This document shows, in pieces, positions 13,110 through 16,244 of a stretch of 55,473 nt of DNA. The DNA comes from a bacterium (GTDB lineage Bacteria > Patescibacteriota > Patescibacteriia > Patescibacteriales > UBA12465). Position 1 is the first letter of the stretch; each line of letters starts with the position of its first letter. Made by a program: the position numbers and the translations under genes. The stretch covers positions 1-55,473 of the forward strand of contig JAJZRB010000007.1 in NCBI GenBank assembly GCA_021806615.1. Direction: 5' to 3'. Under the pieces are notes generated by a model that was not told where the DNA came from, searched no databases, and saw only the letters and a program-made list of their open reading frames with translations.

Positions 13110-14504
13110 ATGTTGAAAGCCCGGGTTTTTAAGGCTGGATATCGCCTGACTCCGGCCAAGATTTTATTTTTCTTCAATATATCATTGATCTTTTTTATTT
13201 TCCTTCTCGGCTTAGATTCGAAGGCTTTCCGTCCGGCCGTAACTCCGCGGGATTTAGCCTATTATAACGGCCAGTTCTTGAGTCTCTCCGGCCGTGTCTG
13301 CGAAGAAGCCGATCTTGACTATAAGAGCCGGCGGCTGACGGTCTGCGTAGACGGCGAGACATCCGGCCAGGTTCTCGTGACGACCAATCTATATCCGGTT
13401 TATGATTACGGCGATTTTTTGAAAGTCAGCGGGGAATTGCGGCCGCCGCCGGCCATTAGCGGCTTTGACTATGCCGCTTATTTGGCACGCTATGATATTT
13501 ATTCCGTGATGTATTATCCGAAAATAGAAAGAGAGCTCGGACGCTTGGCTTATCCGCAGTATGTTTATCGCGGCCTCTTGAATTTCAAGCAGTATATCAA
13601 AGGCCTGGTCGATTCCAGTTTGCCCGAACCGGAGGCCGGTTTGGCAGACGCGCTTCTGCTCGGCTATCGCCGGACCGTCATGAGGGAAGACTTGGATATT
13701 TTCGCGCGGGTCGGTCTAAGCCATATGATCGCTATTTCCGGCTCGCATATCACGATCCTGAGCGCTATGATCGTCAATTTTGTCCTGATGCTCGGCTTCA
13801 GCCGGAAGCGCTCGCTCCGCTTGGTCTTTATTTTTTTGGTGATTTACCCGCTGATTACCGGTTTGGCCGCTTCCGCCGTCCGGTCGGCCCTGATGGGCGG
13901 ACTAGCTTTTTTAGCGTTCTATCACGGACGCTCTAGCTCTCTTATCAAAGCTCTAGCCTTTTCGGGCGCTCTGATGCTCGCCTTGAATCCCCGGCTTCTG
14001 CGCGACGATATCGGTTTCCAATTATCATTTCTCGCTATCCTGGGCATTATTTATCTTTATCCGATAGGCGAAAGGTTTACGCGGCGAATTTTGGATAAGC
14101 TGGGCTGGAAGCGGCGACTGAAACAGGCGATCAAGATCTTCTTGGACACGGTCAATCTGACCCTAGTCTCTCAGATCGTTATCCTGCCGGTGGCTCTGAT
14201 CAATTTCAAGCAGCTATCCCTGATCGCGCCGCTAGCCAATGTCTTGGTACTCTGGACCTTCCCCCTGCTTCTAGCCTCGCTCATTATCAGCGTTGGCCTG
14301 AGCGCCTTTCTTCCCACCGCCAGTATTCTATGGTTTTTGCTAGCCCACCTATTGTTGAGGTATATTTTTGTCGTATCGGATTTTCTTGCGCGCCCTGGTT
14401 GGGCAGCGGTGGAGATATCAAATTTTACTTGGTTAGGCGGGGCGGTATATTATTTGATCTTGGCGTTGGCCGTAATAGTGTTTAGGAAGATATCAAAGAT
14501 TTGA
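13110..14504 (+). CDS. comEC: ComEC/Rec2-family competence membrane protein, without a metallo-beta-lactamase domain
   Basis: LADALLLGYRRTVMREDLDIFARVGLSHMIAISGSHITIL...ASAVRSALMGG; multiple TM segments. Confidence 0.88.
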   Translation: MLKARVFKAGYRLTPAKILFFFNISLIFFIFLLGLDSKAFRPAVTPRDLAYYNGQFLSLSGRVCEEADLDYKSRRLTVCVDGETSGQVLVTTNLYPVYDYGDFLKVSGELRPPPAISGFDYAAYLARYDIYSVMYYPKIERELGRLAYPQYVYRGLLNFKQYIKGLVDSSLPEPEAGLADALLLGYRRTVMREDLDIFARVGLSHMIAISGSHITILSAMIVNFVLMLGFSRKRSLRLVFIFLVIYPLITGLAASAVRSALMGGLAFLAFYHGRSSSLIKALAFSGALMLALNPRLLRDDIGFQLSFLAILGIIYLYPIGERFTRRILDKLGWKRRLKQAIKIFLDTVNLTLVSQIVILPVALINFKQLSLIAPLANVLVLWTFPLLLASLIISVGLSAFLPTASILWFLLAHLLLRYIFVVSDFLARPGWAAVEISNFTWLGGAVYYLILALAVIVFRKISKI

Positions 14505-14628
14505 CTATAATTTAAAATCGTGTTAATATATGTAGCTTATCGTTCTTTAATATTTTTCGTGCCAGCCTCGATATCGGCGCGGCTTAATTAGAAATCAAAG
14601 AATACTAAAATAAATAAAGAGGTGAATC

Positions 14629-15810
14629 ATGTTCAAGATACCAAGACTGGAACAAGCTCTGCTTCTGGTAGAAGAGACTGCTCAGGATTTCCGGGCAATC
14701 TGGCAAATACAATTCAATGAGGGCAAGGTTACTCCTGGCCCCAATGGATTAGCTGTTAATCAACGGAAGTTCCGGAATTATCTGCTGAGTCTTAAGGATG
14801 AGGCCAACTCGCCTGATTTTCAGATTAGCGAAGATTTTTTATTCCCTGATATGGCGGACGAATATTTCGGTGCTATAACCGGGATAAATATCGATCTCGC
14901 AAATTGGATGGCGAAGTCGCGCCGGGTCTATAGCTTATCCGCTACAATGGCGGCGCAGCTCGCCCTGACTCCGGTTGATAATGTAACCTGGGCTGATGTC
15001 AGACTGCCGTTTGATGCGTTCGCTATAAGCTTGGAAGAGCCGATAACGACCAGATCGGGTAAGATTTTCGACTTCGTGATAGTTGCCAAGATCAAGGTTG
15101 ATGGCCAGGAATATTTGGTTTTTGATCTGCTATCTCCGGAGTTAAGGCACTTCCGCCGGCAAAGCGCGTATGAACGCAAGCTGATCGAACGCTTGATCAA
15201 GCGGAAAGAATATTATCGAGCCCTGCAGAAGATCGATTCGCATCGACAATCGATCCTACGAAGCTTGGATAATACTGAAATTAATAGCCGTTTCCTGATT
15301 GCGACCGACATGCTCGGCAACCAGCCTATCCACGCTTCTCTGGCACTACTGTTTAATATTTCCAAAGCATCCATGTCGGAGGTGCGCTCAATACCGCGCC
15401 GATCCGCTGATCCAGAGGAGTTTACGGAGTGGGATGAAGCCGCCAATATAGTCTGCGGCCTCTGCCTGTACTTAGCGCAGAATTCTCGCTATATTCCGTA
15501 TCCCGATCAGAAACCGTCTGCAGATTACCAGCCATTCCGTAGTGGGCGGCCTGACTACTCAGCCGTCAGTTCTGTCGAAGATATCTGCAGCGTTGCCAAT
15601 GAGACTGTCCTTACCGTCAGCGAGATGAATATCATAAGGATGGCACAGGGGAGGACTTTTGAGATGTCTCCGCATTTCCGTAGAGGGCACTGGCGTACAA
15701 CCTTAGTCGATGGCGAAAAAAAGATCACCTGGATCCATCCGACGCTGGTGCGGGCGGATCGCCTGCTTCCGGGCACCTTGCCGGGCGGATTAGTCCAAAA
15801 ATTGGAATAA
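14629..15810 (+). CDS. Orphan 393-aa protein with an AcrVA2-like C-terminal motif (putative)
   Basis: C-terminal SPHFRRGHWRTTLVDGEKKITWIHPTLVRADRL. Preceded by a strong SD (AGAGGTGAATCATG). Confidence 0.55.
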   Translation: MFKIPRLEQALLLVEETAQDFRAIWQIQFNEGKVTPGPNGLAVNQRKFRNYLLSLKDEANSPDFQISEDFLFPDMADEYFGAITGINIDLANWMAKSRRVYSLSATMAAQLALTPVDNVTWADVRLPFDAFAISLEEPITTRSGKIFDFVIVAKIKVDGQEYLVFDLLSPELRHFRRQSAYERKLIERLIKRKEYYRALQKIDSHRQSILRSLDNTEINSRFLIATDMLGNQPIHASLALLFNISKASMSEVRSIPRRSADPEEFTEWDEAANIVCGLCLYLAQNSRYIPYPDQKPSADYQPFRSGRPDYSAVSSVEDICSVANETVLTVSEMNIIRMAQGRTFEMSPHFRRGHWRTTLVDGEKKITWIHPTLVRADRLLPGTLPGGLVQKLE

Positions 15811-15815
15811 AACAA

Positions 15816-15846
15816 AAAACCGTTTCTACTCGATAGAAACGGTTTT
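15816..15846. terminator. Bidirectional terminator between convergent genes
   Basis: Perfect 13-bp arms AAAACCGTTTCTA / TAGAAACGGTTTT with a 5-nt loop. Confidence 0.88.
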
Positions 15847-15875
15847 AAAATTGCTGAAACTAGATATAAAAATCC

Positions 15876-16100
15876 TTAAGCTTTCGTGGCATTGGTTTTG
15901 AGCGCCGGCTTCCTCTTAGCCTTCACTCTTTTAGGCTTATCTATAGTCCTCAGGCAAGAAGTGCAGAGCTTGACCTTGCTTCCTTCAATAGTCCTGGCTT
16001 GCAAATTGATATTTTGCCTTTTCAGGGTTTTGATCTTAGAGTGGGATCGGCTCGCCCCTTTAGTCGCGCTACGTCCGCACAAATCACATTTTTTTGCCAT
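15876..16100 (-). CDS. rpmB: 50S ribosomal protein L28
   Basis: MAKKCDLCGRSATKGASRSHSKIKTLKRQNINLQARTIEGSKVKLCTSCLRTIDK. Start chosen at MAKKCD. Confidence 0.94.
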   Translation of the reverse strand: MAKKCDLCGRSATKGASRSHSKIKTLKRQNINLQARTIEGSKVKLCTSCLRTIDKPKRVKAKRKPALKTNATKA

Positions 16101-16244
16101 ATTATCAGTATTTAAAATTAGATTCCCGCCATCGGCGGGAATAGTAGTCAAATTAACGGTTTTATCTTAACAGTATTTTTAAAATTAATCAAGCTGTGTT
16201 ATAATTCTATTAGTTAAATGTAAATTTTCGCGTATTATCTAAAT

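Follow-up and report, generated by a model that had tools for sequence, protein, structure and literature searches.

AcrVA2 of Moraxella bovoculi (PDB 7CI1/7CI2) is reported to recognise an N-terminal LSKT peptide and then to trigger the breakdown of cas12a mRNA while it is being translated, and a 2026 review describes it as the first documented translation-dependent mRNA degradation against CRISPR in prokaryotes (PMC13131331). According to meeting abstracts, AcrVA2 can be aimed at enzymes that carry a tag (PMC12908700). Thus, its specificity appears to sit in a short peptide. FinQ, a fertility inhibition protein encoded by IncI plasmids, shuts off the tra operon of the F plasmid; the effect has been described as Rho-independent termination of transcription and not as mRNA decay (PMC8744291).

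Judged from their sequences, FinQ and AcrVA2 are homologous. We searched plasmids with AcrVA2 (a query identical to PDB 7ci1 save one residue) and recovered FinQ with an E-value of 5e-11 over 85% of the query; a direct BLASTP comparison of FinQ with AcrVA2 gave E 3e-18 (26% over 300 positions). AcrVA2 matches PHROG 6160 at E 1.4e-62, so this profile represents the AcrVA2 family, and FinQ matches it at E 8.3e-48. FinQ, as found on the IncI plasmid pN410 (L011:2824-3909), accounts for most of the 594 plasmid records matched by AcrVA2. We found no paper naming the two proteins together; bioRxiv preprints and most subscription papers lay outside this search, and an earlier mention is possible. Another phage protein, gp126 of Erwinia phage RisingSun (L019:1156-2157), also belongs to the AcrVA2 superfamily by its sequence, and its annotation as a 'putative mycothiosynthase' is probably wrong.

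Here we describe a distant member encoded in a genome (847 kb, 95% complete) that we read as Patescibacterial from its relatives and its small size, within a stretch of 55,473 nucleotides that we call the window (Table 1). The product of 393 aa ends in SPHFRRGHWRTTLVDGEKKITWIHPTLVRADRL. An earlier note on this DNA had likened this C-terminus and an internal segment to AcrVA2 and had placed the gene beside comEC. Both segments are present as quoted, and a comEC-like gene does lie upstream, in the same direction and across a gap of 124 bp.

Table 1. Features of the locus, in positions of the window
Feature	Position	Strand	Basis or remark
AcrVA2/FinQ-superfamily gene, 393 aa, Patescibacterial clade	14629..15810	+	intact ORF, ATG start; profile, fold, tree
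N-terminal conserved block NWMAKSRRVYSL...LPFDAFAISLEEP, residues 92-139	14902..15045	+	pairs with AcrVA2 ~77-124 in hhalign
Internal segment ANIVCGLCLYLAQNSRYI, residues 272-289	15442..15495	+	in register with AcrVA2 LLPYLLWLCVAEPDI; inside the PHROG 6160 match and the hhalign alignments
PHFRRGHWR motif, residues 348-356	15670..15696	+	opens the C-terminal module, which ends in ITWIHPTLVRADRL
Possible promoter TTGACT-17-TAATAT, TG before second hexamer	14501..14529	+	just 3' of comEC; consensus scan only, near chance expectation
Shine-Dalgarno GAGGTGA	14619..14625	+	direct sequence reading
Hairpin terminator, between the gene and convergent rpmB	15816..15846	.	14-pair stem, 3-nt loop, T-rich tail
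comEC-like gene, conserved left neighbour, outside the system	13110..14504	+	
rpmB (ribosomal protein L28), conserved right neighbour, outside the system	15876..16151	-	

Because BLASTP against AcrVA2 (E 0.004, over the motif only) and a phmmer search of the PDB (nothing convincing) did not settle the relationship, it had to be traced through intermediates. A tblastn search of phages with the 393-aa protein found nothing, and peptide patterns from the protein or its alignment recovered no relatives in the genome and viral contigs scanned. The PHROG 6160 profile matched residues 193-376 of the protein (184 residues) at E 2.6e-4, collinear with profile positions 137-318. A scan for HWRRGHWR-type motifs gave 52 relatives that are 300 aa or longer; they come from Bacteroidota, Proteobacteria, Cyanobacteria, other groups and viral contigs. 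The scan also picked up many short chance ORFs, which were filtered out by profile score. Scaled to 20,000 sequences, the profile of these 52 other relatives detected both the 393-aa protein (E 9.7e-20) and FinQ (E 2.5e-5), and its match to AcrVA2 was not significant (E 0.67).

Since these relatives were picked by motif, their HWRRGHWR columns are invariant by construction. We therefore judged conservation by a motif-free test and by phage, plasmid and Patescibacterial members picked otherwise. When the HW motif and everything after it were cut from both sides, the 393-aa protein scored 40.9 bits (E 1.9e-10), and reversed or shuffled controls reached at most 5.2 bits. HHalign, with E-values that apply to single comparisons, aligned the 52 relatives with 14 AcrVA2, FinQ, phage and plasmid members at E 4.8e-18 (probability 99.0%), or at E 1.8e-9 (96.3%) once the motif was removed, and with the Patescibacterial set at E 6.6e-21. 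The direct motif-free comparison of the Patescibacterial and AcrVA2 sets was weak (E 0.018), so the link runs through the intermediates. PHROG 6160 was matched by 35 of the 41 members of our alignment A3; searches of these members found no Pfam or PADLOC match, and NCBIfam gave one stray weak match that is not credible. Thus, the resemblance reported in the earlier note holds up in profile comparisons, and the 393-aa protein is homologous to AcrVA2 well past the HW motif.

Structure prediction points the same way. An AlphaFold2 model of the protein, built from an alignment without AcrVA2, had a medium mean pLDDT of 63.6 and was good in the core (residues ~100-170 and 350-378). Foldseek returned only three PDB matches below E 0.001 for this model, all of them AcrVA2 (7ci2 and 7ci1, E 2e-6 to 8e-5, probability 1.00), and the next PDB match stood at E 0.074. 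For L084, a relative from another bacterium, the better model (mean pLDDT 87.4) again retrieved AcrVA2, at E 8.7e-9, with the next match at 2.1. TM-scores against AcrVA2 were modest, at 0.35-0.53 over both models and 0.35-0.45 for the 393-aa protein. AcrVA2 is the sole significant structural match of two independently predicted models, in line with the likeness that the earlier note had suspected, and by sequence and fold together the 393-aa protein is a member of the AcrVA2/FinQ superfamily.

Is it then AcrVA2 itself? In a maximum-likelihood tree of 61 proteins, one clade (support 100/99) holds 12 of the 14 Patescibacterial sequences, the 393-aa protein among them, and the two outliers are long-branch, low-scoring sequences. 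AcrVA2 and FinQ share a separate clade (support 100/100) that excludes the 393-aa protein. We conclude that the protein is a superfamily member and not an AcrVA2 orthologue. Divergence across the tree is great, most end branches being near or above one change per site. Four residues (P127, H349, R351 and V374) are nevertheless common to all three clades, and P127 and R351 are invariant. The motif is laxer in the Patescibacterial clade (RRGHWR, RRGYFR, RRGTWR, RMGTWR), many members of which end in a tail of the form PTLVR.DRL..G..PGG. We considered a catalytic His-His reading of the motif and dropped it, because several members have Tyr or Thr in place of the second His.

Compared with the described proteins, the 393-aa protein resembles AcrVA2 in sequence and fold, in the order of its conserved blocks, in its C-terminal HxRRGHW...W.xP..V module and in being encoded by a stand-alone gene. 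It differs in its separate clade, in a length greater by ~70 residues and in its own tail, PTLVRADRL..GTLPGG; AcrVA2 sits in a Moraxella prophage, whereas the present gene is on a Patescibacterial chromosome. FinQ, likewise the product of a stand-alone inhibitor gene of a mobile element, belongs to the same superfamily and is matched by the same relatives' profile, but it is a member of the AcrVA2 clade and acts on F-plasmid tra expression (PMC8744291). The closest non-Patescibacterial relatives by profile (hhalign E 6.6e-21) are unnamed HWRRGHWR proteins of Bacteroidota, Proteobacteria, Cyanobacteria and other groups, such as L083, L084, L099 and a protein of the Microscilla plasmid pSD15. 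These form clades of their own, carry a G-H-x-Y tail instead of PGG, are uncharacterised, lack any model in Pfam or PADLOC, and gave no credible match to NCBIfam.

The earlier note read the protein as an anti-CRISPR or an mRNA-targeting regulator and remarked that Cas12a occurs in some CPR genomes. We judged CRISPR content by searches for the cas genes Cas12a and cas1 and found neither in the host genome. Among 15 Patescibacterial carriers, Cas12a was found in none and cas1 in two. The cas1 search was positive in 9 of 14 control genomes. The Cas12a search, validated on G042 (a non-carrier from the same order) and on G053, gave a positive result for two of the 111 genomes that make up the order. 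As these are draft genomes, single absences are weak, but taken together they argue against a general role of Cas12a as the target; with carriers that lack it, the gene probably silences something other than Cas12a. The gene could still be a genuine Cas12a anti-CRISPR, carried in this host as phage or plasmid cargo, since homology and fold are shared with AcrVA2 and a horizontally moving element could meet Cas12a in the few genomes of the order that encode it. We consider this very improbable, given a host without Cas12a and cas1, the lack of Cas12a in all 15 carriers, and a protein outside the AcrVA2 clade, which itself includes the non-CRISPR inhibitor FinQ. The regulator is thus the likelier half of the earlier reading.

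The gene is accessory and patchy, not part of the Patescibacterial core: none of the other 15 genomes of the genus carries it, and among 381 genomes of the class we found it in 13, in a few of them as a weak or partial match. Within the genus, the order prfB-comEC-rpmB-M50 peptidase-rpsL is conserved, and 13 of the 15 congeners keep comEC without the gene. The comEC-rpmB spacing is ~85-340 bp in ten relatives, with no such gene between; two others have unrelated ORFs in the gap (L192, G008; L194, G015), and one is rearranged on the side downstream of the junction. Thus, the comEC-rpmB junction (window 14505-15875) is a variable cargo site in the genus.

The co-directional position 124 bp from comEC, together with the control of DNA transfer by the relative FinQ, might suggest a local regulator of DNA uptake that is functionally tied to comEC. 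We hold this to be the least probable reading of all, as comEC persists in 13 congeners without the gene and other ORFs fill the same gap in two relatives. The functional tie was rejected because none of the other Patescibacterial copies that we inspected adjoins comEC. Most of these copies stand alone, with neighbours that are unrelated and often of a housekeeping kind. Two of them, from different families (L207:6595-7818 and L230:4049-5233), lie within ~1-2 kb of the rpsB-tsf gene pair, which may be chance. Another family member (P0002, in G044) lies ~2.4 kb from an inovirus-like element (L206:1537-7867), whose genes, as we read them, would encode a secreted protein, a Zot-like ATPase, a replication protein and a serine recombinase.

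That the gene came from a mobile element, as the earlier note also proposed, is plausible, although the window copy has no adjoining recombinase and shows no base-composition anomaly that would point to recent transfer. Phage and plasmid settings are common among the other bacterial members, and in five bacterial loci (L032, L037, L090, L099, L134) a serine recombinase gene of the resolvase type directly adjoins the family gene or lies two genes off. We found no conserved partner gene among these other bacterial loci, where the genes are solitary. On Burkholderia and Robbsia plasmids (L010:2473-4411 and L012:1401-3423), longer members of 513-541 aa with the variant motif GHWRRPHF lie directly 3' of PAAR-domain genes and near T6SS-annotated genes; a role as T6SS cargo is conceivable for these members.

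What might the protein do? It belongs to a large superfamily whose members are encoded singly and, for the most part, on mobile elements. We propose, with confidence that is about even, that it is a mobile single-gene silencer, which would recognise a specific nascent peptide or transcript and remove that mRNA, in the manner of AcrVA2 and perhaps of FinQ. Several observations argue for this proposal: (i) the two studied members, AcrVA2 and FinQ, share ancestry, for each a reduced expression of one specific transcript has been reported (PMC13131331; PMC8744291), and the reported action of AcrVA2 on tagged enzymes places its specificity in a short peptide (PMC12908700); (ii) profile homology spans most of the protein, also with the motif removed; (iii) neither of the two models has a significant structural match other than AcrVA2; and (iv) the genes are solitary, often found on plasmids and phages or beside recombinases, and absent in congeners. 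The description of FinQ in terms of Rho-independent termination and not mRNA decay counts against it, and the wide separation of the Patescibacterial and AcrVA2 clades, with their weak direct motif-free match, means that function may differ between them.

Alternatively, ancestry and fold may be all that the protein has in common with AcrVA2 and FinQ, so that it now acts as a toxin, in an antitoxin-like or defence function, or as a domesticated regulator of a host gene. The great divergence, the lax motif of the Patescibacterial clade and the proximity of some Burkholderiaceae members to PAAR and T6SS genes would all fit such a change. The four residues common to the three clades argue against it, as does the lack of a conserved partner gene, and lowered expression of specific genes, seen in both studied members, is the parsimonious ancestral activity. 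We see such a change of function as possible, at odds clearly below even.

In the proposed silencer, the effector part common to the superfamily is most naturally sought in the basic-aromatic module at the C-terminus (HxRRGHW...W.xP..V), which is conserved, and the choice of target in the middle region, which varies. The middle region would recognise a given nascent protein, or a given transcript, and the C-terminal module would then bring about the loss of the mRNA, perhaps by acting on the ribosome, on the RNA or by way of a nuclease of the host. As the gene can be dispensed with and occurs only here and there, its target is more likely to belong to a competitor (a plasmid, a phage or a defence system, for instance) than to the host, and in this host the target would not be Cas12a.

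On a broader and more tentative view, to which we give a little less than even weight, AcrVA2, FinQ and the Patescibacterial clade would all represent a single superfamily, old and widespread, of mRNA silencers that are guided by nascent peptides and whose targets extend far beyond CRISPR. If so, the 'transcription termination at multiple sites' ascribed to FinQ would in fact be decay of the mRNA in the course of its translation, and Patescibacteria would turn the same mechanism on some target of their own. The interest of the locus lies in this large superfamily, which joins AcrVA2 to FinQ and reaches Patescibacteria without Cas12a: with such a range, nascent-chain gene silencing could be a general weapon between mobile elements and not a one-off anti-CRISPR.
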